Assembly: GCA_016882545.1 (NCBI GenBank)
Contig: VGPW01000011.1
Location: 1-33,666 of the forward strand
From: Cyanobacteria bacterium M_surface_10_m2_179
Lineage (GTDB): Bacteria; Cyanobacteriota; Cyanobacteriia; PCC-6307; Cyanobiaceae
Reading direction: 5' to 3'
DNA: 33,666 bases
This document shows positions 2,963 through 33,666 of the stretch, piece by piece; the stretch's first letter is position 1; each line of letters begins with the position of its first letter. The notes below the pieces were generated by a model. The model was not told where the DNA came from and did not search any database. It worked only from the letters and a program-made list of their open reading frames with translations. The position numbers were made by a program, and so were the translations under genes.

Positions 2963-4675
<1,713 letters not shown>

Positions 4676-5394: not shown

Positions 5395-6303
5395 TCATCC
5401 TGAACAGTTGAGGGCGGCTGGGTCCAGCCCCGTCCAGGGGTTTTCCTGGAACGGCCACACCCGCGGCAATTGCGGCGGCTCCAGGCCGCGCGCCTGGCGG
5501 ATCAGGGCCCAGAGCCGGCAGAACCAGTAGCGGGCGGCCTGGCTGGAGGGGCCGCGGTAGCGAGCCACCAAACCCTGCTCCAGGGCACCGCAGGCCATGG
5601 TTCCCTCAAGGTTGTTGCGGGCTGCTCGGGCTTGGTTGAGCAGCTGCTGGAGCTGCTCGGTTGGCAGGGGTTGCGGCGAGGCCCACACCAGCGAGCCGAA
5701 CACCGGCTCCCCGGCCATGCCGTGCTCGCCCGCTAGGGCGTTGCCTTCGAGCTGCAGGCGATCCACCAGTTCCCAGCGGTTGGGCCGGCGGATCTGCAGG
5801 CCCGAGCGCCAGCAACCGCCACCCAGGCTTTCGCCCGCGGCGGTGCGCCCCAGCCGCACCACATCCATGGCCAGGAAGCTGGCGTTGTCGGCCAGGTTCA
5901 CCACCAGCTGTTGCTCAAACAGCGCATCGGCGTAGAGCACCAGCTCCTGCGGCAGCCACTCCAGATCGCTGCCAGCCTCCAGCTCGAACTGCAGTTCCTG
6001 AGCGGCCCAGCGCCCCTGGGGATGGCAGCGGGAGCGCCGCACCGTGCCATACACCTTCTGTGCCGCCACGCTGGTGAGCAGGGCTTGGCTGCCGGGCTCC
6101 AGCCGCGCCTGCAGCGAGAGCTGGTCGCCCCCCACCAGGCCGCCGGCGGTGTGCAGCAGCGGTAGTTCGCAGTGGCCGCTTGCCTGGGGAAAGGCGCGCA
6201 TCAGCTTCAGCGGGGCGCTGGCGCCGCCCTGATGGCGGGTGATTCCGTCGCGGCGGCTGAACTGAAGCCGGGCGCTGGCGCACCAACCGGAGTGATCGTC
6301 CAC
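5395..6303 (-). CDS. ureD: Urease accessory protein UreD
   Basis: This 302-residue protein is the scaffold subunit that binds apo-urease and recruits UreF and UreG for nickel insertion. Family signatures are [18 protein letters not shown] (around residue 48-65), [15 protein letters not shown] and [16 protein letters not shown]. The start is a GTG at 6301-6303; no better upstream start is visible. It is the first gene of the minus-strand ureDABC operon and is divergent from ureE, with 57 bases between starts. A shared promoter region is therefore expected there, although I could not fix a -35/-10 pair or an NtcA site. Confidence 0.95.
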
Positions 6304-6360
6304 AGCAGCGACGGCCTCGGGTCGACGTGGTTCCAGAGTGGCCTATATCGCGCAACCCTG

Positions 6361-6849
6361 ATGGAGCAGCCCGCCGCCGTTGTGCTCGTGGAGCGTCTGC
6401 CTGCGGCGGAGGGGCCTGCGGGTGCTCAGGCTTGTTTGAACCTGCCGCTGGCGGCGGATCAGCGCACCAGCCTGCGCGGGCACCGCCGCTCCGCTTGCGG
6501 CCGCGATCTGGTGTTGCAGTTGCCGCGGGCCGCGGCGCTCCAGCCCGGTGAATGGCTCCGCAGTGCCGATGGCTCGGTGCTGGTGCGGGTGGAGGCGGCG
6601 GCCGAGCCGGTGATGGAGGTGCGCAGTGGGGATCCTCTGGCGCTGCTGCAGGCCGCCTATCACCTCGGCAACCGTCATGTGGCGATGGAACTCCACGCCG
6701 ATCGGCTGCTGCTCCTGCAAGACAGCGTGCTCGCCGATCTGCTGCGCCAGCGGGGGCTGCAGGTGAGCTTGCACACCTTGCCTTTTCAGCCCGAGGCGGG
6801 GGCCTACGAGGGGTCGGGGCCTCAGCACAGCCACCACCACCACCATTGA
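6361..6849 (+). CDS. ureE: Urease accessory protein UreE (nickel chaperone)
   Basis: From the ATG at 6361 the product is 162 residues. The open frame extends upstream, but that part is antisense to ureD and has no family support. UreE delivers nickel to the UreDFG-apourease complex. Recognisable parts are the N-terminal QRTSLRGHRRSACGRDLVL beta segment, ARVEVRSGDPLALLQ-like central motif (here AEPVMEVRSGDPLALLQAAY), GNRHVAMEL and the C-terminal metal-binding tail HSHHHHH (residues 156-162). No clear Shine-Dalgarno is visible before the start. It leads the plus-strand ureE-ureF-(ABC)-ureG-urt block and ends nine bases before ureF. Confidence 0.93.
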   Translation: MEQPAAVVLVERLPAAEGPAGAQACLNLPLAADQRTSLRGHRRSACGRDLVLQLPRAAALQPGEWLRSADGSVLVRVEAAAEPVMEVRSGDPLALLQAAYHLGNRHVAMELHADRLLLLQDSVLADLLRQRGLQVSLHTLPFQPEAGAYEGSGPQHSHHHHH

Positions 6850-6858
6850 GCCGGAGCT

Positions 6859-7536
6859 GTGGAGGCCAGCGCCCGCCTGCGGTTGTTCCAGCTGGTGAGT
6901 CCGGCGTTGCCGGTGGGCGCCTTCAGTTACTCCGAGGGGCTGGAGCTCTTGGTGCAGCGCGGTGTGATCAGCGATGCGGCGGCGCTGGAGGCCTGGCTGC
7001 AGGCGGAGCTGCGCCGCGGTGCGGTGGGGTTGGAAGCGGCGGCCCTGGCTCCCCTGGCCGCCGCCTGGATGCAGTGGCGGCAGGGGCTGGTAGACGCCGC
7101 TGCGCTGGAGCAGCTCGATGGCTGGTTGCTGGCCCAGCGGGAGGCACCGGAGCTGCGGGCGCAGCAACGGCAGATGGGGCGGTCGCTGCTGGAGTTGCTG
7201 GCGGATCTGGGATGGCCGTTGCCGGGGCCTGCCGCATCCCTGGCCTGGCCGGCGGCCTTTGCCTGGGCGGCTGTGTGTCTGGAGATCGGGTCGCCCGCCA
7301 TGGAGGAGGCCTACCTCTATGGCTGGGTTGCCAATCAGATCAGTGCCGCTGTGCGCCTGGTGCCGTTGGGGCCCACCCAGGGGCAGCGCCTGCAGCTCGC
7401 CCTGGCGCCGCTGCTGGCGGAGCGAGCCGCGGCGCTGGCTGATGCCGACTCCCAACGGCTCTGGACCGGAGGCGTTGGCGCCGGCTTGGCGCAGCTGCAG
7501 CACGCCGAGCTCTACTCCCGTCTGTTTCGCAGCTGA
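6859..7536 (+). CDS. ureF: Urease accessory protein UreF
   Basis: The 225-residue helical protein starts at a GTG (6859), nine bases after ureE. The N-terminal LFQLVSPALPVGAFSYSEGLE is the UreF signature, and EEAYLYGWVANQISAAVRLVPLG near residue 160 is also diagnostic. UreF acts with UreD to recruit and activate the GTPase UreG during nickel-centre assembly. The normal neighbour ureG does not follow directly: a three-gene ABC transporter lies between. Length and motifs look intact. Confidence 0.95.
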   Translation: MEASARLRLFQLVSPALPVGAFSYSEGLELLVQRGVISDAAALEAWLQAELRRGAVGLEAAALAPLAAAWMQWRQGLVDAAALEQLDGWLLAQREAPELRAQQRQMGRSLLELLADLGWPLPGPAASLAWPAAFAWAAVCLEIGSPAMEEAYLYGWVANQISAAVRLVPLGPTQGQRLQLALAPLLAERAAALADADSQRLWTGGVGAGLAQLQHAELYSRLFRS

Positions 7537-7593
7537 CCATCCAGCTGGTTTGCCTGCTTTGCGCCGCCATGATGCGGGGATGCAGGTGCGCTG

Positions 7594-8478
7594 ATGCTCT
7601 CCATCTGGATCGGAGCCGTTGATCAGGGCCTGGCCTATGCCGGCCTAGCCCTCGGCGTGTATCTCACCCTGCGGGTGCTCAACTTCGCCGACATCACGGT
7701 GGATGGCTCCTTCGCCCTCGGCGGCGGCAGTGCAGCTCTGTTGCTCACCCAGCAGGTGACGCCGCCCCTGGCCCTGCTGGCGGCGGCGGCGTTGGGGGCA
7801 CTGGCGGGCCTGGTGACCGGATTGATCCACACCCGCCTGGGGGTGAATGATCTGTTCGCCGGCATCCTCACCACCACCGGGCTCTACTCGATCACCCTGC
7901 GGCTGATGGGCCGCTCCAACATTCCCCTCACCGAGGTGGCCCTGCCGCTGCAGCACTGGCCCGATCTGGGCCTGGGCAGCGATGGCCAATGGCTCCTCGC
8001 CCTGGCGCTCGCGATGGGTGGCTTGATCGTGTTGCTGGCGCTGTTGCTGGGCACCGACCTGGGCCTGGCCCTGCGGGCCATCGGTAACAACCCGGTGATG
8101 GCTCGTGCCAATGGCATCAGCACCCGCCGGGGCCTCTGCCTCGGCATCGCGGCCGGCAACGCTCTGGTGGCCCTGGCCGGAGCGCTCGTGGCGCTTTATC
8201 AGGGTTTTGCCGACGTGACCATGGGCATCGGTTCGCTGATCCTCGGCCTGGGTGCGGTGATCGTGGGTGAATCGGTGTTGCGGCCCCGCGGCGTGTCCTG
8301 GGCGCTGCTGGCGGTGGTGCTGGGTTCGGTGTTGTTCCGGGCGATGATCGCCCTTGCCCTGCAGCTGGGCATGGATCCCGTGGATCTGAAGCTGGCCACG
8401 GCGCTGTTGCTGTTGGCGGCCCTCGGCCTGGGCCGGCTGCGGCTTCCCGGTCTGTCGGCGCCTGGGGGTGAGCCGTGA
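7594..8478 (+). CDS. ABC transporter permease, COG4120 type
   Basis: This 294-residue membrane protein (start MLSIWIGAVDQGLAYAGLAL) has about eight to nine hydrophobic segments. It shows the branched-chain-type permease pattern (BPD_transp_2) with LRVLNFADITVDGSFALGG early and GLALRAIGNNPVMARANGIS in the cytoplasmic coupling region. It belongs to the uncharacterised COG4120/COG1101/COG2984 transporter set; some members of related sets handle amino acids. The gene overlaps the ATPase by four bases (GTGA) and starts 57 bases after ureF. Substrate is unknown. Its position inside the urease accessory cluster suggests a nitrogenous substrate, but that is inference. Confidence 0.87.
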   Translation: MLSIWIGAVDQGLAYAGLALGVYLTLRVLNFADITVDGSFALGGGSAALLLTQQVTPPLALLAAAALGALAGLVTGLIHTRLGVNDLFAGILTTTGLYSITLRLMGRSNIPLTEVALPLQHWPDLGLGSDGQWLLALALAMGGLIVLLALLLGTDLGLALRAIGNNPVMARANGISTRRGLCLGIAAGNALVALAGALVALYQGFADVTMGIGSLILGLGAVIVGESVLRPRGVSWALLAVVLGSVLFRAMIALALQLGMDPVDLKLATALLLLAALGLGRLRLPGLSAPGGEP

Positions 8479-9269
8479 GCCTGGAGATCGAAGGGCTGGC
8501 CTGGGGCCATCCCCAACCTGGCGGCGGCTGGCGGCAACTGTTCAACGCCTTCAGCCTTCACTGCCCGAGCGGCCAGTTTGTGGTGCTGATCGGCAGCAAC
8601 GGCTCCGGCAAGTCGACGTTGCTCAACCTGATCGCTGGCAGCCTGCCGGCAACGGCTGGCTCACTGCGCTTGGAGGGCCGGGAGCTGTTGCGGCTGCTGG
8701 CGCACCGCCGCGCCCGCAGCATCGGTCGGGTGATGCAGAACCCGCTCGATGGCACCGCTCCCGGGCTCACGATCGCTGAAAATCTGCGCCTGGCGGAATG
8801 CCGGCGCCGCTCCCTGCTGCAGCCCCGCGCCCTGCTGGGCCTGCATCCCGGCCGCGGCGATCGGCGTCGCTACGCCGCGCTGCTCGAAGAGTTGGGGCTG
8901 CCCCTCGCGGATCGGCTGGAAACGCCGGTGGGTCAGCTCTCCGGCGGTCAGCGCCAAACCATCAGCCTGGTGATGGCCAGCCTCGGGGAGCCGCGGCTTT
9001 TGCTGCTGGATGAACACACCGCCGCCCTGGATCCCCGGGCTGAAGCCAGCGTGATGCAACTCACCGAGCGGCTGGTGCAGCGGTTGGGCAGCACCACCTT
9101 GATGGTCACCCACAGCCTCGAGCAGGCCCTGCGCTATGGCGATCGTTTGGTGATGCTCCAGGACGGCGCGGTGATCGGCGACTGGACGGCCGAGCAGCGG
9201 CAACAGTTCACCCCGGCTGCGTTGCAGGCTCTCTACGGCAGCGCCACAGTGCCGTTGGAACGCACCTGA
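8475..9269 (+). CDS. ABC transporter ATP-binding protein, COG1101 type
   Basis: The 264-residue ATPase starts at a GTG overlapping the permease stop by four bases. Walker A is GSNGSGKS (residues 40-47), the ABC signature is LSGGQRQ, Walker B is LLLLDEHTAALDP and the switch histidine is in MVTHSLEQ. The glutamate after Walker B aspartate is present, so it should be catalytically competent. The HTAALDP variant of the D-loop region is characteristic of this COG1101 subfamily. It would energise import through the adjacent permease. Confidence 0.92.
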   Translation: MSLEIEGLAWGHPQPGGGWRQLFNAFSLHCPSGQFVVLIGSNGSGKSTLLNLIAGSLPATAGSLRLEGRELLRLLAHRRARSIGRVMQNPLDGTAPGLTIAENLRLAECRRRSLLQPRALLGLHPGRGDRRRYAALLEELGLPLADRLETPVGQLSGGQRQTISLVMASLGEPRLLLLDEHTAALDPRAEASVMQLTERLVQRLGSTTLMVTHSLEQALRYGDRLVMLQDGAVIGDWTAEQRQQFTPAALQALYGSATVPLERT

Positions 9270-9274
9270 GGGTC

Positions 9275-10276
9275 ATGAGTCTGCGCCGCCGCCAGTTTCT
9301 GGCTCTCTCGGGTGGATCGCTCTTGCTGGCGGCCTGCGGACGTTTGGGTGGGCAGAGCCCGCGCAAGGGTCCCCTGATCGGCATGCTGCAGATGGTGGAT
9401 GCCCCGCCACCGAACCTCACCCGTGAGGGGTTTGAGCAGGCCCTCGCCGCTGCCGGCTATCGCGATGGTCAGACCATCACCTACCTACAGAAGGATGCTG
9501 CTGGTGAACTGCCCAACACCACCCTGGTGATGCAGCAGTTCCACAGCGAGAAGGTGGACATGGTGCTGGCGGTAGGCACGCCACCCCTGCAGGCGGCGAT
9601 GAAGGTGCTGCCTGAATCGGTGCCGGTGATCTTCTGCTACTGCTCCAATCCCTGGGGTGCCGGGGCCGGCACGCCACCGGGTGGTGTGGGTCAGCACCGC
9701 CCCAATGTGGTGGGCACCGTGGGCACCAACCCCGTGGGCAAGGAGCTTGATCTGGCCCGCGAAGTGAATCCAAAGCTCAAGCGCGTGGGGCTGATCTTCA
9801 ATCCCGGTGAGCCCAACTCGGATTACGAGGCCAAGATCCTGCGCCGTGAGGCCGAGCAGCGTGGGCTCGAGCTGCTGGAGCAGTCGGTGGCCAATTCCGG
9901 CGAGGTCTTGCAGGCCGCCAAGGCCCTGGCGGCCAAGGAGGTGGAGGCGTTCGTGAAAATCGGCGACTACGCCACCATTCAGGCCTTCGCCTCGATCTGC
10001 AAGGTGGGCCTCGAGCACCGCATTCCGGTGTATTCCGTCGACCCCCCCGACATTCAGCTGCCGGGCTGTCTGGGGGTGATCGGCTGGAACTACCGCGATG
10101 ACGGCATGGCCGCCGGCAAGCTCGCCGTTCGCGTGCTCAAAGGCGAGTCGCCGGCGCAGATGGCCTTTGAACCGCTCACCAAAACTGATCTTCTTGTGAG
10201 CTTGGCTACGGCCACGGCGATCGGCATCACCGTGCCGGATGAGCTGGTGCAGCGAGCCAATCAAGTGGTGCGTTGA
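9275..10276 (+). CDS. ABC transporter substrate-binding lipoprotein (COG2984)
   Basis: This 333-residue protein begins [21 protein letters not shown]. It has a twin-arginine-like RRQFL motif and a lipobox with Cys21, so it is probably a Tat-exported lipoprotein held on the outer face of the plasma membrane. The body fits the ABC_sub_bind family (PF04392): [45 protein letters not shown] and a late [17 protein letters not shown]. The ligand is unknown. It starts six bases after the ATPase, and its stop overlaps the ureG start by one base (TGATG), which ties this cassette to ureG translation. Confidence 0.88.
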
Positions 10277-23625: not shown

Positions 23626-24792
23626 TTAGTGGCCGTTGGGGTCGCTGTCGAGGCTGTGCATGTAGTCCTGCACCCGGCAGCGGCGCTGGGGTTGGCGCAG
23701 CTTGAGCAGGGCGCGCGATTCGATCTGCCGCACCCGCTCCCGCGAGAGGTGCAGGTCTTCGCCGATCTGCGACAGCGTCTGTGGTGTGTCGTCCTCGAGG
23801 CCGTAGCGCAACCGGATCACGGCGGCTTCCCGGGCCGTGAGCTCATCGAGCAGGGCCTCCAGGTCGTTGTGCAGCTCCTCGCGGGTGAGCTCCTGTTCGG
23901 GTGTGGCGTGGCCGTCCTCCAGCAGATCGCCCAGTTCCGTGTCCTGCTCGCGGCCCACGCGGGTGTCCAGCGACACCGAGCGCGGCACCCGCATCAGGGT
24001 CAGCCGTACCACCTCCTCGCTGAGCCCCAGCTCCCGTGCCAGATCCGCCACCGAGGCGAGGCGGCCGTGCTCGCTGGCGATCTGCCGCTGGGCCTTCTTG
24101 ATCCGGTTGAGCTTCTCGGTTACGTGCACCGGCAGCCGGATCGTGCGGCTCTGGGTGGCGATGGCGCGGGTGATGCCCTGGCGGATCCACCAGTAGGCGT
24201 AGGTGCTGAACCGGAAGCCGCGGGTGGGGTCGTATTTCTCCACGGCCCGCTCCAGGCCGAGGGTTCCCTCCTGCACCAGATCGAGCAGCTCCATGCCGCG
24301 CTGCTGGTATTTCTTGGCCACGGCCACCACCAGCCGCAGGTTGGCCTGAATCATGCGGTCGCGGGCGCGGCGGCCGTGATGCAGGGCCTGCTTCAGCTCC
24401 GCCACGCTGAGCTTGCTGTGCTCGGCCCATTGCTCCTGGCCGCGCCGCAGCCGCTCCCGCAACGCCGGCACACTGCAGCCCAGCTGCTCGGCCCACTGCT
24501 GCAGGGCAGGCCAGTGCCCCAGTTGGGTGGCGAGGCGCTGGCGACCATCCTCCAGGGCGATCAGTTCGGCCAGATCGGGTGCTGAGCTCGCCAGCCGCCG
24601 CCGCTCCTGCAGCAGCCGTTCGCGCCGTTGCACCTGCCGCGCCAGGGTGAGCTCCTCTTCATGGCTGAGCAGGTCAACACGGCCGATGTCCTGGAGGTAG
24701 AGCCGCACCAGATCCGTGCTGCTGCGCCTGGTGCCAGAGGAGGGTTTGGGGCTGGAAGGGCCCTTCGACACAGGCTCAGCGTGAAACAGCAC
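23626..24792 (-). CDS. Group 2 sigma-70 factor (RpoD/SigA-like)
   Basis: This 388-residue sigma factor has region 1.2 (DLVRLYLQDIGRVDLLSHEEE). A helical insert follows, then region 2 with MIQANLRLVVAVAKKYQQRGM and FRFSTYAYWWIRQGITRAIA. Region 3 begins near IRLPVHVTEKLNRI, and region 4 contains LRYGLEDDTPQTLSQIGEDL and SRERVRQIESRALLKLR. The long acidic 1.1 region of the primary sigma is absent, so it belongs to the non-essential group 2 factors common in cyanobacteria. The start is a GTG at 24792; no upstream ATG fits. Its exact Sig letter cannot be fixed without alignment. Confidence 0.92.
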   Translation of the reverse strand: MLFHAEPVSKGPSSPKPSSGTRRSSTDLVRLYLQDIGRVDLLSHEEELTLARQVQRRERLLQERRRLASSAPDLAELIALEDGRQRLATQLGHWPALQQWAEQLGCSVPALRERLRRGQEQWAEHSKLSVAELKQALHHGRRARDRMIQANLRLVVAVAKKYQQRGMELLDLVQEGTLGLERAVEKYDPTRGFRFSTYAYWWIRQGITRAIATQSRTIRLPVHVTEKLNRIKKAQRQIASEHGRLASVADLARELGLSEEVVRLTLMRVPRSVSLDTRVGREQDTELGDLLEDGHATPEQELTREELHNDLEALLDELTAREAAVIRLRYGLEDDTPQTLSQIGEDLHLSRERVRQIESRALLKLRQPQRRCRVQDYMHSLDSDPNGH

Positions 24793-26938: not shown

Positions 26939-27502
26939 TCAGACTGTCTTCAGCAGAGAAAGCAGATTCTGGGACGCAAATACATCTCTGTAGAAGGTTA
27001 ATTGCTCGCTCTTGAAGTAGCAAGCACCACGATGCCCACGCCGAACCCAGCATACGGTTCCTTTGGCAATGGTCTCACCGCTTTCGTCATCCAGGCAATG
27101 CCATTCAAAGTGCACGAATTCTCCCCAGAACATCACGATTGGCCAGCACATCGTGACATTGGGCTGAGCGATTAACGCCCACCAATGCTTCTCGCGCTCA
27201 GTTTGTTCTGTGAGTCCATAAAAAGGACCATCTTGGCAGAAATAAACCAAATCATTCCTGTATTCACCGCGAAGCAAGTCTCCGCGGGCTCGCCGCAGCG
27301 CCTCGCAGTGGGTGGGCCACCAAGCTTTGTTCTCTGCCTCAATCTCATTTGGGCTGTAGTCAGCACCGATGGACGGTAGTTCGGCTTCTTTCTTGGTAAT
27401 GAATTCCTCGGCTTGAGCAATCAGCTTGTCACCGAGCTCTTTGGACACGAGCCCGGGCCGGGAAAAGTCAGCGGAAAGGTCAGCGTAGTACTTGCGAGTC
27501 AT
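26939..27502 (-). CDS. Hypothetical protein, possibly SnoaL/NTF2-like
   Basis: This 187-residue protein is not confidently recognised. It starts at the ATG at 27502 (MTRKYYADLSADF); a TTG three codons earlier is possible. A charged helical N-terminal half is followed by a region rich in aromatic residues: REKHWWALIAQPNVTMCWPIV, FWGEFVHFEWHCLDDESGE and GTVCWVRRGHRGACYF. This alternating-strand pattern with many Trp and His resembles the curved sheet of SnoaL/NTF2-like proteins. That resemblance is a visual impression only. It is the last gene of the low-GC operon, 56 bases after the kinase gene and just before a terminator. No signal peptide or membrane segment is seen. Confidence 0.7.
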   Translation of the reverse strand: MTRKYYADLSADFSRPGLVSKELGDKLIAQAEEFITKKEAELPSIGADYSPNEIEAENKAWWPTHCEALRRARGDLLRGEYRNDLVYFCQDGPFYGLTEQTEREKHWWALIAQPNVTMCWPIVMFWGEFVHFEWHCLDDESGETIAKGTVCWVRRGHRGACYFKSEQLTFYRDVFASQNLLSLLKTV

Positions 27503-27558
27503 GGGAATCAAGTGGAAATGAGTGATTTGAGAGGGATTGAATCGCCTCGGTAATCGGC

Positions 27559-28038
27559 TTATTGAGGATTGGGATGATCAAGTGTTGATAGCTCGTATGT
27601 GTTTTTCCCGTTCAGCCACTTATAGGAGACCAGGTCCACGGACTGTTGAATCAAAAATAGACCCAAGCCACCGATTTGACGTTCGTGAACCGGTTGATCT
27701 GTATCTACAGATTCCCGTTCCCCAAATTTAGGGTCGAACATAGGACCATCATCCTCGGTTCGGATGATGAAGTAATCATGACTAGAATCACTCTTTTTGA
27801 GGGTCGCAACCTTGAGAGTTACTGGCTTAAGATTGTTTGAGCTCGTAAATTCTGCTGAGGCACGAATAATATTTGAGATGAGCTCTTCAAAAGCCAGCCT
27901 TAGCTTGTATGCACGAGATTGATCATGGACGTTGCTTTCAATCTGGGCTCCAGCAAAGTTCATAAACTCTTCCCAGCAATCCATTGAAGCCGGGGCTTCA
28001 ATCTTGCCAAGTTCAGCCTCGATTCCTTGATCATTCAT
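27559..28038 (-). CDS. Anti-sigma-type serine kinase (HATPase, RsbW/SpoIIAB-like)
   Basis: The 159-residue protein has a GHKL ATPase fold: N box RLAFEELISNIIRA (Glu51/Glu52 and Asn56), G1 box TEDDGPMFDP (Asp97, Gly98) and G2 box IGGLGLFLIQQ. Proteins of this size phosphorylate STAS antagonists and bind a partner such as a sigma factor. It starts five bases after the STAS gene stop, and a GGAGGAG ribosome site sits in the last STAS codons, so the two are tightly coupled. The position matches slr1861 in the icfG cluster (from memory). The phosphatase gene that separates them there is missing here. Confidence 0.87.
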   Translation of the reverse strand: MNDQGIEAELGKIEAPASMDCWEEFMNFAGAQIESNVHDQSRAYKLRLAFEELISNIIRASAEFTSSNNLKPVTLKVATLKKSDSSHDYFIIRTEDDGPMFDPKFGERESVDTDQPVHERQIGGLGLFLIQQSVDLVSYKWLNGKNTYELSTLDHPNPQ

Positions 28039-28043
28039 CGCAT

Positions 28044-28367
28044 CTAAATCTCCTCCGTACTCTGCACAATGACAACCGCCTGAGCAAGGCCAGTTTTAGT
28101 AATCGTTTCTACAATCTGATCAGAGGGGCCAACTAGATAAAGACTTGAACTGTGCGGCATCTTCTGCTTAGCAAATATGATGGCGCGCAGACCAGCACTA
28201 CTAACGAATTCAACCCCTTGCAAATCTATGCGCAACTGCTCCAAGGCATGCAGCTCAAGTGCCGTCAACTTGCTGAGCAATTCAGGAGCGGTCTTGGTAT
28301 CAACATCGCCGGACAACGTAAGTGTGACATGAATGTCACCTTGGGTCATTTCAATCGATAGGGCCAT
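28044..28367 (-). CDS. STAS-domain anti-sigma factor antagonist (second copy)
   Basis: From the ATG at 28367 the protein has 107 residues and is a single STAS domain. The strand pattern IHVTLTLSGDVDTKTAPELL is followed by LRIDLQGVEFVSSAGLRAI. By alignment with SpoIIAA the phosphorylatable residue should be Ser57 in SSAGL. The frame is open upstream into glgX, but the family start is here, 34 bases after the glgX stop. It is the likely direct substrate of the kinase encoded next to it and corresponds to slr1859 in the Synechocystis cluster (from memory). Confidence 0.87.
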   Translation of the reverse strand: MALSIEMTQGDIHVTLTLSGDVDTKTAPELLSKLTALELHALEQLRIDLQGVEFVSSAGLRAIIFAKQKMPHSSSLYLVGPSDQIVETITKTGLAQAVVIVQSTEEI

Positions 28368-28401
28368 GGTGGGTAGGATTGAGTGAGGGTGAATCTGTTG
28401 A

Positions 28402-30510
28402 TTACGTCTCGCGAGGAGACGCATTGAAGATAACAACTGAGCGCTCTCCAACCAGGATGCCGTTCTCATTGAACGGAGCCGGATTGTTCATATGTGGCGA
28501 TACAGAATCGCCAGTGTTGAAGCAAAGGCTCCATGAATAGCCTTCCGGAAGGCCTGGTAAATCAAACCACGTTGCATAGTGTGCCATGTTTGTTGCAACA
28601 TAGACAGCATCCATCTGACCGTGAGCAGCGTCATCGCATGTCATCAACCAGGCGAGTTGTCTGGATTCAGCTGACCAATCGACTTGCCAAGGAGTTCTAC
28701 CGTGGAAGCTGCAACTCGGCATACCACCACCTCCGCTATGGCTAAAGCTATTAACCCGAAGACAGGGATGCTTGTGTCGGAAGTGGATCAGAGCTTGGGT
28801 GAGATCAAAGAGTTGCTTGTTATTATCTAGCAGAGTCCAATCGACCCATGAAATTGGGGAATCGATGCAGTAGGCGTTGTTGTTTCCATGTTGTGAGCGA
28901 CCGAATTCATCCCCCATCAGTAACATCGGTGTACCTCGACTCGTCATGAGTATGCTTAACGCATTCATTGATTGCCTTGTACGGAGCGAACGAACGCCTA
29001 TGTCCTCCGTCCAACCCTCTGCGCCGCAATTCCAGCTGTGATTGTCGTCTCCACCGTCGCAGTTATTTTCTCCATTAGCTTCGTTATGCTTGTTATTGAA
29101 TGAGACTAAATCAGCGAGAGTGAAGCCATCGTGGCAAGTAATGAAGTTAATCGACGTGGCTGGAGATCGACCATTCCATTCGTACAGATCGGGCGATCCT
29201 TGAACTCGCTGGGCCATCTCACCAACTTGTGCCTCGTCTCCCTTTAAATACTTTCGTGCTGTGTCACGATATTTACCATTCCATTCAGACCAGCGACCAA
29301 AAGCAGGGAAAGTACCAACTTGATACAGACCGCCAGCATCCCAGGCTTCTGCAATGAGTTTGCAAGATGAAAGAATGGGATCAAAGGCAAGTGATTCAAG
29401 CAGAGGAGGATTGCTTAGAGGTGCACCCCATGGATCTCTACCTAAGATGCTTGCCAAATCAAATCTAAAACCATCAATATGATACTCAGACGCCCAGTAT
29501 CTCAAGCAGTCAAGAACCAGATTGCGGACAACTGGGTTATTGCAGTTAAGAGTGTTGCCGGTTCCGCTAAAATTAAAGTAATAGCCATCAGGCGTCAACA
29601 TATAATAGATTTTATTATCTAATCCCTTGAATGAAATTGAGGGTCCTCTCTCATTGCCTTCGGCAGTATGGTTAAAAACAACGTCGAGAATCACCTCAAT
29701 ACCAGCCTTATGCAATTCTTTGACGAGTTGCTTGAATTCGTCCACCTGCATTCCAAACTTTCCGGATGCTGCAAAGCCGGCTTTTGGAGCGAAAAATGCT
29801 ACAGTACTGTAACCCCAATAGTTGTAAAGACGTTCACCCGTATCAGGATGAATCCGAGAATTCTCGAATTCATCAAACTCAAATATGGGCATCAATTCAA
29901 CGGCATTGATACCCAATGACTTTAAGTAAGGAATCTTCTCGGTTATTCCAGCATAAGTACCTTTGAATTTCACCCCCGAGCTATCACTCTGTGTAAACGA
30001 GCGCACATGCATCTCGTATACTACTAAATCAGCGTCGTTAATCTCTAGAGGAGAATCCCCTTCCCAGTCAAAGTCGTCAAATGCAACGCGAGAACGGTAT
30101 TGATATGCTTTGCTCCAATCTGGCTCTACACCCCATTCGTCTCTGCCTGAAAGAACCCGTGCGTAGGGATCCATCAAGATATTGTCAACATTAAAACGAT
30201 GTCCTTCCTCTGGAGCAAAAGGACCATCAATTCTAAAACCATATTCTACATCTTCATAATCTAGGCCGTAAACAACGATAGAATAGACATCTCCAATTCG
30301 GTAATGGTCAGGTACACGAATCTCACCCAAAGCAACTTGTTCCGACCTGCTATATACAACGAGTGTGCAGGAAGTGCCTGCAGACGTGTATACAGAAAAG
30401 TTAAGACCACCGGGCACTGAAGAGACGCCAAATGGTAATGGCTTTCCTGGCCTAACCCGAAATCCCGCGATCGTGTCGGTTGGGAGATTGTCTATTCTTT
30501 CGAATTCCAT
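28402..30510 (-). CDS. glgX: Glycogen debranching enzyme, GlgX/isoamylase type
   Basis: The 702-residue GH13 enzyme hydrolyses alpha-1,6 branches of glycogen. An N-terminal CBM48-like domain (PFGVSSVPGGLNFSVYTSAG) leads into the barrel with VYEMHVRSFT and EVILDVVFNHTAEG. The nucleophile is Asp351 in IDGFRFDLAS, the acid/base Glu388 in LIAEAWDAGG and the third acid Asp461 in ITCHDGFTLADL. All three are intact. I chose the ATG at 30510, five bases after the STAS stop; a TTG three codons earlier is possible. It sits between the two STAS genes, matching slr1857 (from memory). The paralogous housekeeping glgX is not in the window, so this may be an additional copy. Confidence 0.93.
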   Translation of the reverse strand: MEFERIDNLPTDTIAGFRVRPGKPLPFGVSSVPGGLNFSVYTSAGTSCTLVVYSRSEQVALGEIRVPDHYRIGDVYSIVVYGLDYEDVEYGFRIDGPFAPEEGHRFNVDNILMDPYARVLSGRDEWGVEPDWSKAYQYRSRVAFDDFDWEGDSPLEINDADLVVYEMHVRSFTQSDSSGVKFKGTYAGITEKIPYLKSLGINAVELMPIFEFDEFENSRIHPDTGERLYNYWGYSTVAFFAPKAGFAASGKFGMQVDEFKQLVKELHKAGIEVILDVVFNHTAEGNERGPSISFKGLDNKIYYMLTPDGYYFNFSGTGNTLNCNNPVVRNLVLDCLRYWASEYHIDGFRFDLASILGRDPWGAPLSNPPLLESLAFDPILSSCKLIAEAWDAGGLYQVGTFPAFGRWSEWNGKYRDTARKYLKGDEAQVGEMAQRVQGSPDLYEWNGRSPATSINFITCHDGFTLADLVSFNNKHNEANGENNCDGGDDNHSWNCGAEGWTEDIGVRSLRTRQSMNALSILMTSRGTPMLLMGDEFGRSQHGNNNAYCIDSPISWVDWTLLDNNKQLFDLTQALIHFRHKHPCLRVNSFSHSGGGGMPSCSFHGRTPWQVDWSAESRQLAWLMTCDDAAHGQMDAVYVATNMAHYATWFDLPGLPEGYSWSLCFNTGDSVSPHMNNPAPFNENGILVGERSVVIFNASPRET

Positions 30511-30515
30511 AGCAA

Positions 30516-30842
30516 TCAAGAGTTGGGGATTAATTCAAGTGAATCGTAGATTGTGAAGAACTGATAAAAGCCAGTCACTTTCATCGTATCTGCAATTTCT
30601 TCAGCGACTCCGATGAGTGCTAGGTCAACACCCATATCTTTTGTCTTACGCTGAAGCGTTAATAACGTCCGGAGCCCAGCGCTTGACATGAAGGGTACTT
30701 CCGTTAACTCAAGAGCTACGGGATGCCCCTGCTGCAGTTGGGTATCAATAAAGTCTCGAAGGTCACCGACTGTCTTGGAATCCACTTGACCCGTGACCTT
30801 GATCACTTGCCAGTCTTTGAACTGTTGGAGGGCAACTTGCAT
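30516..30842 (-). CDS. STAS-domain anti-sigma factor antagonist (first copy)
   Basis: From the ATG at 30842 the 108-residue protein is a stand-alone STAS domain: WQVIKVTGQVDSKTVGDLRDF, then VALELTEVPFMSSAGLRTLL. The predicted phosphosite is Ser54 in SSAGL. It starts 11 bases after the AGE-type gene and ends five bases before the glgX ATG. It corresponds in position to slr1856, described as a phosphoprotein of the icfG cluster (from memory). It differs enough from the second copy to have a separate partner. Confidence 0.87.
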   Translation of the reverse strand: MQVALQQFKDWQVIKVTGQVDSKTVGDLRDFIDTQLQQGHPVALELTEVPFMSSAGLRTLLTLQRKTKDMGVDLALIGVAEEIADTMKVTGFYQFFTIYDSLELIPNS

Positions 30843-30853
30843 GGTAAAAGGCC

Positions 30854-32683
30854 TCACTTAGGAGATACTGTAACTTTAACATGCAGTCGATGTTCTGACT
30901 CAGGCAGATTAACTGTCAGCAATTCGGCATTGAAATCTGTATAAGCCTCGCCTTCGATTTCACACTTGCTAATGACCAAAGAACCTTTTGGAAGGATATC
31001 TGGTTCAACACGGAGTACCCGATCTTTGAATCCATTTGGCAGTGGCTTAAAGTGAAGATCTAGCGGACGCTTCTTGATCATGAGATCAATGTAAACTGTT
31101 GACAAGAAGCATAGTTCAGTGGAGTGATATGCGCTCATTGAATGACTGCCCTTGAAGCGCTCTGTCCCCACCAAATAAGGCACGCCATTGGCTAGGACGT
31201 TGAAGTAAACGCCTCCGTCATTGTTGTCCAGGAAGAATGCATTGTAGAAGGCAGCAGATTCATCTGAATATTTCTTGTAAGCGCCATTGTCTGGCATATG
31301 ACCTTGGAGGATTAAATAAGCGAGGATACCTTGCTCTTGTTGCCACCAAGCTTTACGATCATGCCACGCGTAGCGATGGTATTTCTCGTTTTGGCCAAGT
31401 ACTCTTTCAACGACATCATACCAACCGAAGCGCTGGTTATCATAGCCAACTTTAGGCATTAAATCGGCAATCTTCTTCGCAACCTCAAGATACTTATCTT
31501 TGCCGATTTCCGAGTAAAAGCGCATGAGGTTCCAAGCTATTTTCAGATTGTGCCCTACAACGGCTCTGTTTTGCTGCCAACCCCACGTCTGATCTTTACT
31601 CCAATCATCAAAGAACTTTTCTTGCACGAAAGGACTGTTGTCGTAATCAGGAAAATGCGTCGTGATCGTGTCAAATGTGTCTTCAAGCATCTTCTTATAA
31701 CGCTCTTCCCCTGTTGCCAGCCATAGGTTAATCAGGTAGGCCGGCGCATGGTCGCCTACCGAGTTCCAGTTCTTCTTGGCTTTGTTTCTACCGAGGCTTT
31801 CCTCATGAGCACTGAGAGTGACTGCATGGATGTGAGAATAGTAACCACCCTTGTCATGATCTTTGAAGCATTCATCAAAGAGGTCAACAGTCTTTTCTGC
31901 ATCTGAAAGGATGCGGGGATCTCCTGTCAGCCTGTAGGTCTGGATCGGACCTGCCAGGGCATAAATCTGCTCATAGGCAGGAATGCAGTCATAGTCATCA
32001 CCAAACTCTGAGACGAGCAGCTTTTGCTCCTCACCCCCGCTGCTTACCTTCTGCCCATGATACCAATAAATTAAACCTGTATCGGTATCAGTAAACCTCA
32101 TCTTGTCGCGTAAATATTCCGTACCTTTCTCTGCGGCATCTAGATAAAGATCCTTGCCGGTTAGCATGTATGCACATGCCATGCCGTATACCATTCTAGA
32201 GATTGTATCGGTTTCCTGAAGGAAATCACTATCTTTCTTCCCACCAGTGAGGTTGATAAGTGTGCGATAATTGCGATAATCAATCTCTTGATTGGGCGCA
32301 TCAAACTGCCATTTGCAATACGAAGCTGCGATTTGGTCGATCTGTTGAATCCACCATCCTTGTTCATCGCTATATCGATATTCATTCTTATTGTCGCCCG
32401 CAAACAGGATGTAGTTAATTTCGAACTTGATCTTTTCTTCTGGGAAGTAAGTGCCGTAGGCAAAGATCATTTGCCCAGGTACTAATAGTCTTTTGAGCTC
32501 TCCTGATCTGTCTGGCCAGTCTTCACCAAGGTTCTGGGTTTGTTTAGCGTATGTGTTGCCTGTTAACTTGCCTTGGTACTCTCGGCCATCAGACGTTTTG
32601 ATTCCGATGAGCTTGTTGGCTTCGTCATAGGAGGTGACATAGCCTGAGATCAGATCTGAAAATGTGAAGTTGAGATCGTTCAT
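30854..32683 (-). CDS. AGE-family sugar epimerase/isomerase with extra terminal domains
   Basis: This 609-residue protein has a central (alpha/alpha)6-barrel of the N-acylglucosamine 2-epimerase family, roughly residues 105-540. Family motifs are ETDTISRMVYGMACAYMLTG, DGGYYS-like KGGYYSHIHAV, the catalytic-type histidine His378 in VVGHNLKIAWNLMRF and KAWWQQEQGILAYL (Trp446-Gln451). Family members interconvert sugars such as mannose/glucose or N-acetylmannosamine/N-acetylglucosamine; the substrate here is not known. About 100 N-terminal residues (strand-rich, with VPGQMIFAYGTYF) and about 60 C-terminal residues are additional to the usual 400-residue family. It is second in the operon, 40 bases after the DJ-1-type gene, and corresponds to slr1855 (from memory). 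Confidence 0.88.
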   Translation of the reverse strand: MNDLNFTFSDLISGYVTSYDEANKLIGIKTSDGREYQGKLTGNTYAKQTQNLGEDWPDRSGELKRLLVPGQMIFAYGTYFPEEKIKFEINYILFAGDNKNEYRYSDEQGWWIQQIDQIAASYCKWQFDAPNQEIDYRNYRTLINLTGGKKDSDFLQETDTISRMVYGMACAYMLTGKDLYLDAAEKGTEYLRDKMRFTDTDTGLIYWYHGQKVSSGGEEQKLLVSEFGDDYDCIPAYEQIYALAGPIQTYRLTGDPRILSDAEKTVDLFDECFKDHDKGGYYSHIHAVTLSAHEESLGRNKAKKNWNSVGDHAPAYLINLWLATGEERYKKMLEDTFDTITTHFPDYDNSPFVQEKFFDDWSKDQTWGWQQNRAVVGHNLKIAWNLMRFYSEIGKDKYLEVAKKIADLMPKVGYDNQRFGWYDVVERVLGQNEKYHRYAWHDRKAWWQQEQGILAYLILQGHMPDNGAYKKYSDESAAFYNAFFLDNNDGGVYFNVLANGVPYLVGTERFKGSHSMSAYHSTELCFLSTVYIDLMIKKRPLDLHFKPLPNGFKDRVLRVEPDILPKGSLVISKCEIEGEAYTDFNAELLTVNLPESEHRLHVKVTVSPK

Positions 32684-32723
32684 GTTTCGATTTGCAATGG
32701 GGTGGGAGTTGTTGATTAAAATG

Positions 32724-33305
32724 TTAGAGGCCGCAGATAACGTCCCTAAAACGTTCTACGAAACTACCGACGCAACCTGGATGTTTGCCTGTTATCAGTA
32801 AGCCCTGCTGATGGAGTTCCACCGTAGCTCCATCTTGTACTATTAATTTGGCACCAGCGTTTTCTACATCACAGATGATGTTGTGCGCACAGGTAACCTC
32901 ACGTGACTTGATAAGACTTGGGTCCGCGCAGAATAACCATAGAGAGTGACAGATCGTGCCGATAGCCAATTCACCCTGGTCCATTAAGGTGACGGCTTGT
33001 CTCAAGAGATTGACCGCAGGTGCTTGATTAGTAGCGGCCAGCTTCTCCTGATAGCGGAGTCGATCCATAGCATAACCACCGATCAGTATGAGTCCCTTGT
33101 AATCGGTGAGATCGATAGTGCTAACACAATGCTTGACTACAACCTTGCTGGTCTTGTCATTGCCCTCAAAAGTGAGAGATTCATTCCCCCACAAATAGGA
33201 GGCGTAATCAACATCTATTCCGTTGCTTGGAAAGTACTCATTGAATACGTTGAATTCAGTCTCGTCGTAGTGCTCTTCAATCAGCACGAGCACTTTGGTG
33301 GGCAT
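32724..33305 (-). CDS. DJ-1/PfpI family protein
   Basis: The 193-residue protein has the flavodoxin-like glutamine-amidotransferase fold: KVLVLIEEHYDETEF, then YKGLILIGGYAMDRLRYQ and the nucleophile elbow IGTICHSLWLF with Cys119 and His120. The conserved N-terminal glutamate is likely within EEHYDETE. Members include chaperone/deglycase and isonitrile-hydratase-type enzymes; the exact activity cannot be told. It is the first recognised gene of the low-GC operon, with a possible promoter 27 bases upstream, and matches slr1854 in position (from memory). Confidence 0.87.
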   Translation of the reverse strand: MPTKVLVLIEEHYDETEFNVFNEYFPSNGIDVDYASYLWGNESLTFEGNDKTSKVVVKHCVSTIDLTDYKGLILIGGYAMDRLRYQEKLAATNQAPAVNLLRQAVTLMDQGELAIGTICHSLWLFCADPSLIKSREVTCAHNIICDVENAGAKLIVQDGATVELHQQGLLITGKHPGCVGSFVERFRDVICGL

Positions 33306-33666
33306 AGAGAGGGCTCCCTATCACTGTCCGAAATATAGGCCTTAGGCCTTTTAGGGGCACAATATTCATAAACTGTCATCTTTGAATATTTTGTGGCCTT
33401 GGATACATCCTCGACTCAGTGCTTACCAAGCTTCTTGGAAATGATTGATTTTCGACTGTCTGGAGCGCCACAATGGTATTCGATCTGTATTTCTTTGGAT
33501 TCTTGTGGCAAAACTTACGGAACCCAACTTTTTCAATGCTAGCGAGACACGCTTGACACCCCAGGGCTGATTCAAAGTGTGTCATAGGCATGCTTGCCGG
33601 GGCTGCGAGCATGGGTTGAGGTCGGTGGGATTGCCCCCTCTCAGTGCCCCAAAGCGTTTCTGCCGC
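33306..33666. other. 361-base terminal region without a supported gene
   Basis: This stretch holds the possible operon promoter and a tandem TAGGCCT heptamer at 33336-33349. It also contains a 78-codon minus-strand open frame at 33376-33612 that has no recognisable domain and odd composition. G+C rises again in the last 70 bases, hinting that the low-GC segment ends here. No RNA gene or terminator was seen. Confidence 0.5.
33332..33362 (-). promoter_or_regulatory. Possible promoter of the low-GC operon
   Basis: On the minus strand TTGTGC (33362-33357) and TATATT (33337-33332), 19 bases apart, resemble -35 and -10 boxes. They would place a start near 33325, about 20 bases before the DJ-1-type ATG. 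The spacer contains a tandem heptamer (see findings). The -35 match is poor. Confidence 0.3.

Follow-up and report, generated by a model that had tools for sequence, protein, structure and literature searches.

An icfG-type partner switch on a probable imported island of a picocyanobacterium, with its phosphatase most likely beyond a contig edge

The locus examined here raises the question of whether a bacterial partner switch really lacks its phosphatase. The window, meaning the whole 33,666-nucleotide stretch that was analyzed, is one entire contig (VGPW01000011.1; C11 of genome G000) of the freshwater picocyanobacterial assembly of Cyanobacteria bacterium M_surface_10_m2_179 (GCA_016882545.1; 127 contigs, completeness 85.65%, contamination estimate 2.32), and it carries a cluster resembling icfG of Synechocystis PCC 6803. 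In the literature seen, work on the icfG operon concerns one cyanobacterium, where slr1852–slr1862 reportedly form a single operon and IcfG is reported to dephosphorylate Slr1856 but not Slr1859 (PMC12329169, PMC8670252, PMC11619594). Two of these sources report that Slr1861 phosphorylates Slr1856, Slr1859, and Ssr1600 and serves as an anti-SigC factor (PMC12329169, PMC8670252); according to the first, it is not known which sigma factors the STAS proteins Slr1856 and Slr1859 target. The initial annotation of the window recognized an icfG-type cluster, found no phosphatase in it, and concluded that the switch must borrow one, run one-way, or be controlled by synthesis. The recognition was right; as regards the conclusion, the switch is very probably complete and seated on an imported island, and the missing phosphatase an effect of the contig edge.

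Within the window, the cluster is transcribed from the minus strand in the order DJ-1, AGE, STAS1, GlgX, STAS2, and kinase, followed by a conserved seventh gene (Table 1), and matches to Pfam and NCBIfam bear out the order of the first six as originally read. The core that defines icfG-type clusters, AGE–STAS1–GlgX–STAS2–HATPase kinase in sequence on one strand, is therefore present. The genes are tightly packed, with 4-base overlaps at AGE/STAS1 and STAS1/GlgX, and the five-base spacing of STAS2 and kinase was confirmed. By gene order we take the AGE-fold gene to be slr1855-like; its product had no match among the PDB sequences by phmmer at E 0.001. Both STAS proteins contain the phosphorylatable serine at the conserved SSAGL site, which in STAS2 is residue 90 by the listed start and residue 56 from the ATG at 28367, the likely start. 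The ATP-binding motifs of the HATPase_c_2 kind are conserved in the kinase (12-row alignment, judged by eye).

The genome-wide search for PP2C/SpoIIE genes proposed by the initial annotation was run with PF07228 and gave no match on the window's contig, so the reported absence stands for the window itself; it found three genes elsewhere in the assembly, on contigs C29, C65, and C108. The latter two lie in near-identical ftsY–PP2C–argH loci, which may reflect strain mixture or duplication. The third is of the cluster type, and its contig can be joined to the window through an insertion sequence (IS). The window ends inside this element, of which C29 holds a full copy, and an identical 10-mer stands at both outer junctions: the window reads CTTGACACCC to the left of the element and C29 reads CTTGACACCC to its right, while the left flank of the C29 copy reads CACCCGTGCC. 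Chance alone would produce agreement over 10 bases at a fixed position about once per million. The element agrees with the ISAs1 family in its transposase, which exceeds the family cut-off in two frames, its 1242-bp length, its terminal inverted repeats, and its short target duplication; it differs in that the transposase of the assembled copy is split over two overlapping frames (L040:4294-5432), for which a frameshift, a programmed shift, and an assembly error are candidates. Three terminal-repeat sites were located in the assembly with one mismatch allowed, namely two left ends and one right end, which fits the collapse of two or more ISAs1 copies. The assembly would have broken at this repeated element, between two gene units, and so made the phosphatase seem absent. 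A promoter scan called one site, located elsewhere, and the TTGACA within the target duplication is thus not claimed as a promoter.

Beyond the element, C29 continues with a GH13 amylase gene bearing CBM20 (5713-7557), the PP2C gene (7680-9752), and then gcvT. Carried over into window numbering, the PP2C start falls near 37,030. The target-site duplication, the synteny of a related genome, and an empty aspS/gcvT site together place the phosphatase past the right edge, where it most likely begins about 3.4 kb out, in a divergent GH13–PP2C unit of the same low-GC (guanine–cytosine) island and beside DJ-1. The element would, with high probability, have inserted between the two divergent units of the island. 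The proposal of a borrowed, one-way, or synthesis-controlled switch is accordingly not supported, since a cluster-type PP2C can be placed so close to the edge; the initial annotation had also considered a PP2C gene just past that edge in the same operon, and what we find shares the island but belongs to a divergent unit and not to that operon.

The C29 PP2C has 690 residues, with hydrophobic segments at about 24-48 and 350-381, a HAMP domain at 377-426, and a SpoIIE domain at 487-687, and its metal-binding aspartates are conserved (10-row alignment, judged by eye). In the PP2C tree it falls into a clade (100/96) made up of the family's cluster-linked PP2Cs, which groups (94/87) with icfG-type PP2Cs from other cyanobacteria and from Chloroflexota. 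Its structural model, built from three sequences, is weak (predicted local distance difference test score, pLDDT, 64.7; predicted template modeling score, pTM, 0.40), and for this reason the proposed sensor function is based on the two hydrophobic segments and the HAMP domain. The top structural match of the modeled phosphatase domain was SiaA-PP2C (6k4e, E 2.2e-12), and the full-length match to NCBIfam SiaA was weak, at 59.6 bits versus a cut-off of 700.

The arrangement that has to be reconstructed across the IS junction in G000 can be read directly in G407, a congener and the nearest relative with the cluster, in which a single contig carries aspS, the homologue of the seventh gene, kinase, STAS2, GlgX, STAS1, AGE, DJ-1, the divergent GH13 and PP2C genes, and gcvT. 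Identities between G000 and G407 are 62% for the kinase, 68% for the PP2C, 84% for STAS2, 85% for DJ-1, 88% for STAS1, 90% for GlgX, and 91% for AGE; judged from these sequences, the signaling parts diverge more than the enzymes. In G288 and G571 the divergent PP2C–GH13 pair also adjoins gcvT, with an additional PP2C behind the kinase. We searched 25 congeneric genomes for aspS and obtained a match in 21, of which 18 have gcvT beside aspS, i.e., an empty site; the match ends are 23-252 bases apart in 16 of them and 895 and 1138 bases apart in two with partial gcvT matches. The remaining three loci are G000, G407, and G389, whose contig begins within aspS.

Base composition points the same way. 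GC per kb in the window is 59-71% up to 27,000 and 45-49% beyond, and the C29 PP2C lies in a 47-50% GC stretch adjoining gcvT; third-position GC is 0.43-0.59 in both island halves versus 0.87-0.88 in aspS and pyrG. In the G000 gcvT (C29; L040:9733-10896), the 400 bases most distant from the island show 81-88% identity to the cluster-free G330, with GC of 68-69%, whereas the island-side 400 bases are 49-54% identical to G330, with GC of 55%; at this same end, G330 and G397 stay 74-78% identical. The whole gcvT of G407 has a GC of 49-58%. These values suggest that the gcvT of G000 is mosaic, with a recombination breakpoint inside the gene, and in all likelihood the cluster belongs to a low-GC island that arrived by horizontal transfer and separates aspS from gcvT. 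Plasmid records searched with the kinase gave seven matches, every one below 60% identity.

Table 1. Positions of the cluster genes, the insertion element, and the neighboring sigma gene (window coordinates unless C29 is named).
Feature	Position	Strand	Evidence or remark
DJ-1/PfpI-family gene, first of cluster unit	32724-33305	-	PF01965, 55.2 bits; G407 identity 85%
AGE-fold protein, GlcNAc 2-epimerase family	30854-32683	-	PF07221, 49.3 bits; G407 identity 91%
STAS1, anti-anti-sigma-type	30516-30857	-	PF01740, TIGR00377 above cut-off; SSAGL at residue 58
GlgX glycogen debranching enzyme	28402-30519	-	TIGR02100, 680 bits vs cut-off 640.9
STAS2, anti-anti-sigma-type	28044-28469	-	PF01740, TIGR00377 above cut-off; SSAGL motif
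HATPase_c_2 kinase, RsbW/SpoIIAB/Slr1861-like, predicted serine kinase	27559-28038	-	PF13581, 47.2 bits, over cut-off
Conserved island gene, seventh of cluster	26939-27511	-	G407 identity 94%
SigC-type sigma gene	23626-24792	-	NCBIfam best match SigC; between pyrG and aspS, two genes downstream of kinase
10-bp target duplication, left copy	33552-33561		Right copy C29 5454-5463; identical 10-mer at both outer junctions
Left 105 bases of ISAs1-family element	33562-33666	+	Final 107 window bases match C29 exactly
Full ISAs1-family copy, 1242 bp	C29 4212-5453		Terminal repeats; NF033564 above cut-off in both transposase frames

The product of the seventh gene gave no match in Pfam and NCBIfam searches. 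The best of its five AlphaFold2 models reached a pLDDT of 72.4 (the others 41-52) and had the SnoaL-like 3dxo as its top PDB match (E 3.3e-6, template modeling scores 0.39/0.56), so this moderate model would resemble NTF2/SnoaL-like folds. Many cyanobacteria and some Accumulibacter-type loci retain the gene in the vicinity of the cluster, and in a Nostoc locus (L065) and a few others its homologue forms the C-terminus of a longer frame, the N-terminus of which resembles EthD on visual inspection. An Rfam scan found zero matches in the cluster; elsewhere in the window, RF02514 (5' ureB sRNA) matched at 4234-4520 with 115.3 bits.

Across the family, AGE matched in 38 of 400 genomes, and the cluster type of the window, taken at 75% identity or more, occurs in 12, among which 10 have a linked PP2C, including G000 through the IS and G508 with a GAF-type PP2C. 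Among the cyanobacterial genomes listed beyond this count, G145 and G187 show no linked PP2C, and the classification by linkage leaves out G229, G382, G278, G251, and G005. Searches with PF07228 in eight congeneric genomes without an AGE match gave one match in six of them and three each in the incomplete genomes G386 and G405; in the latter, a 57%-identical PP2C adjoins gcvT at a contig end. Four genomes (G324, G342, G257, and G291; L041-L044) carry a diverged GlgX–AGE pair (AGE identity 50-52%) and one PP2C each, with no STAS or kinase gene in the 14-kb stretch around the pair. Because these genomes with the enzymes only have a single PP2C, the extra phosphatase tends to accompany the switch and not the enzymes. 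GlgX of L044 is split over two frames. A contig filed under an uncultured proteobacterium metagenome-assembled genome (MAG; L061) encodes an AGE 83% identical to that of the window and is probably a mis-binned picocyanobacterial contig. Outside the cluster, G000 has one further STAS match, on C2, and the five cluster-free relatives searched each have one of similar score (frames of 127-195 residues); this STAS protein of G000 is a candidate for the Ssr1600 part.

A possible output of the switch is encoded close by. The sigma gene near aspS scored 542.7 bits against NF005785 (SigC), just under the curated cut-off of 554, with the next sigma family at 435.2, and SigC was likewise the best match of its counterparts in G571 (513.2), G288 (516.6), and the cluster-free G330 (534.3). 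The gene order is gcvT–island–aspS–sigma–pyrG in G288 and G571, and aspS–sigma–pyrG recurs in G407; since the sigma gene is native to the genus, it is the island that would have landed beside it. The SigC-type factor is the likeliest candidate partner of the kinase by sequence match and position, and a reading of its gene as an unrelated RpoD-like neighbor was rejected, SigC being the best match.

The comparison of cluster order that the initial annotation called for was extended beyond the family. From the best 80 of at least 546 AGE loci we dropped 11 with less than 4.5 kb after AGE and counted 69, assigning phyla from record names (some records are MAGs) and labeling genes with profiles built from 21 training loci, mostly cyanobacterial. 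The 80 loci span Cyanobacteria, Bacteroidota, Chloroflexota, Pseudomonadota (including Accumulibacter, Contendobacter, and Pararhodospirillum), a Geobacteraceae bacterium, and a planctomycete. AGE–STAS1–GlgX–STAS2–kinase keeps the same order on one strand in 58 of the 69, in six phyla (Cyanobacteria 25/30, Bacteroidota 22/22, Chloroflexota 3/6, Pseudomonadota 6/9, Geobacteraceae 1/1, planctomycete 1/1), and this interleaving strengthens the earlier proposal that signaling is tied to glycogen or sugar enzymes. A single branch (100/99) separates STAS1 from STAS2 (66 rows, 64 different, with labels from our own profiles), each its own orthogroup across phyla. A search of the open literature, judged by title and start of abstract, brought up the Synechocystis work and nothing about such modules in other phyla, a weak indication of novelty given that subscription papers mostly lay outside it.

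The phosphatase is the variable part. A PP2C lies inside the locus in 48 of the 69, and among the 26 cyanobacterial loci having one, eight use the IcfG slot between STAS2 and kinase; in the rest it follows the kinase, stands between STAS1 and GlgX, lies upstream, or is on the opposite strand. The IcfG slot is empty in the window and is not a general feature of icfG-type clusters. Front ends vary as well: HAMP with membrane segments in the lineage of the window and G099 (below cut-off in Accumulibacter), Cache and HAMP in Geobacteraceae, GAF in a Nostoc, G014, and Synechococcus 1G10, REC in Chloroploca, REC–GAF in Anaerolineae, and several hydrophobic segments in place of a named front end in the second PP2C of G571 and the PP2C of G205. 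The PP2Cs linked to clusters do not form a single clade: the opposite side of the tree holds those from Bacteroidota, Pseudomonadota, Geobacteraceae, the planctomycete, and G508, as expected under phosphatase swapping. Clusters without a phosphatase appeared to occur in Cytophagales-type bacteria (Dyadobacter, Runella, Rhabdobacter, Hymenobacter, Arsenicibacter), where the 10-kb flanks of 16 loci hold no PP2C, yet in all 16 genomes the best SpoIIE match was located 19.5-21.0 kb downstream of AGE, on the same contig as confirmed from length and gene content in six fetched loci and assumed for the other ten. In those six (L175-L180) the PP2C was seen about 20 kb downstream of AGE, and in L175, the one locus labeled by Pfam, the run after the kinase comprises an nSTAND/WD40 protein, other large proteins, a propeller histidine kinase, a histidine kinase, and a REC–SpoIIE PP2C. 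One short Bacteroidota contig (L119) has no PP2C.

This distribution would also accommodate a broader reading, to which we give tentative and rather limited credence: the five-gene core may be an old glycogen-control module, common to at least six phyla, with a constant core and interchangeable PP2C input, in which STAS control of the enzymes is primary and SigC a cyanobacterial addition. The STAS proteins could act on GlgX or AGE directly, since their genes stay beside both enzymes from Dyadobacter to Nostoc. A precedent by analogy is SiaABCD of Pseudomonas, with its membrane PP2C SiaA and a STAS protein, SiaC, that acts on the enzyme SiaD; the modeled phosphatase domain is closest to SiaA-PP2C, but the cluster has no cyclase gene, the full-length match stays far under the SiaA cut-off, and enzyme output is an analogy. 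As the nearby sigma factor matches SigC best, we rate STAS-on-enzyme output lower.

Returning to the complete switch on an imported island, several observations weigh against it or its parts. The assembled left flank of C29 differs from the end of the window, and the present-day linkage of C11 and C29 is for that reason something we infer. In two carriers, G436 and G370, no PP2C is linked to the cluster. The island-side gcvT of G000 is no nearer to G407 (46-57%) than to G330, so that a single shared import is not demonstrated. The core ftsY–PP2C–argH row sits on a very long branch, making its exclusion from the cluster-PP2C clade unsure. As for the sigma factor, its SigC score is below the curated cut-off, the gene is native and adjoins aspS in cluster-free genomes too, and the other 8 of the 12 carriers have no such neighbor in the fetched stretch.

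Some of these points would also be met if the phosphatase were present but unlinked, recombination between two IS copies having split the halves so that a trans-encoded enzyme is used. C29 as assembled does start in a different locus and reach GH13 by way of the IS, and an unlinked arrangement exists in G436, where coordinates on a single 3.85-Mb contig put a PP2C of the same clade about 2.5 Mb away; we nevertheless consider this unlikely, since the end of C11 is a left junction matching the right junction on C29, and assembly through the repeat accounts equally well for the left flank of C29. It is highly improbable that C11 and C29 stem from different cells of a mixed-strain MAG, one of them without phosphatase: the two near-identical ftsY–PP2C–argH contigs and the contamination estimate would allow it, but the common target duplication traces C11 and C29 back to a single insertion, which any mixed strains would share. 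Hardly any weight remains for a phosphatase-less switch, reset by the borrowed core enzyme or controlled by synthesis, for although the contig lacks a PP2C and the genome has a core one, the same genome holds a cluster-type PP2C with island-like GC and a matching IS junction. Outright loss of the phosphatase is contradicted by the PP2C on C29, and the core enzyme was rejected as switch partner because cluster-free genomes carry one SpoIIE gene of similar score and its tree row falls, though on a very long branch, outside the cluster-PP2C clade.

In the complete switch as we picture it, the kinase would phosphorylate the STAS proteins at the SSAGL serine, and the membrane phosphatase, with its outside sensor region, HAMP, and SpoIIE/PP2C domains, would strip the phosphate off, the balance setting which partner the kinase holds. 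By homology, the phosphorylation state of STAS1, and perhaps that of STAS2, should be governed by the kinase and the PP2C. Gene content, the two junctions of one insertion, the motifs, and the relationship of the phosphatase to other cluster-linked PP2Cs are read from sequence; that the C29 PP2C acts on these STAS proteins, the signal it senses, and the output are what we infer. The nearby SigC-type factor would be the likeliest partner, and glycogen or sugar use (GlgX, AGE, GH13) the likeliest process served. The system shares AGE, STAS, GlgX, STAS, kinase, and SpoIIE/PP2C phosphatase with the icfG cluster of Synechocystis but differs, with IcfG compared by description, in placing the phosphatase, fitted with a membrane sensor and HAMP, in a divergent GH13 unit and not between STAS2 and kinase, in the conserved seventh gene behind the kinase, and in the location of the island beside a SigC-type gene. 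With RsbU–RsbV–RsbW and SpoIIE–SpoIIAA–SpoIIAB it has in common the kinase–STAS–PP2C triad with conserved motifs, whereas here no sigma gene lies inside the cluster, carbohydrate enzymes are interleaved, and there are two STAS proteins.

A false anomaly, the switch without a phosphatase, is thereby removed, and the case illustrates how genes of a pathway can escape notice behind a repeated insertion sequence. Two hypotheses are raised in its place: control of enzymes, from the several phyla in which STAS genes adjoin GlgX and AGE, and control of SigC, from the position of the island by a SigC-type gene in picocyanobacteria. The cross-phylum core with its changing phosphatases and the SigC-type neighbor are the parts worth following.

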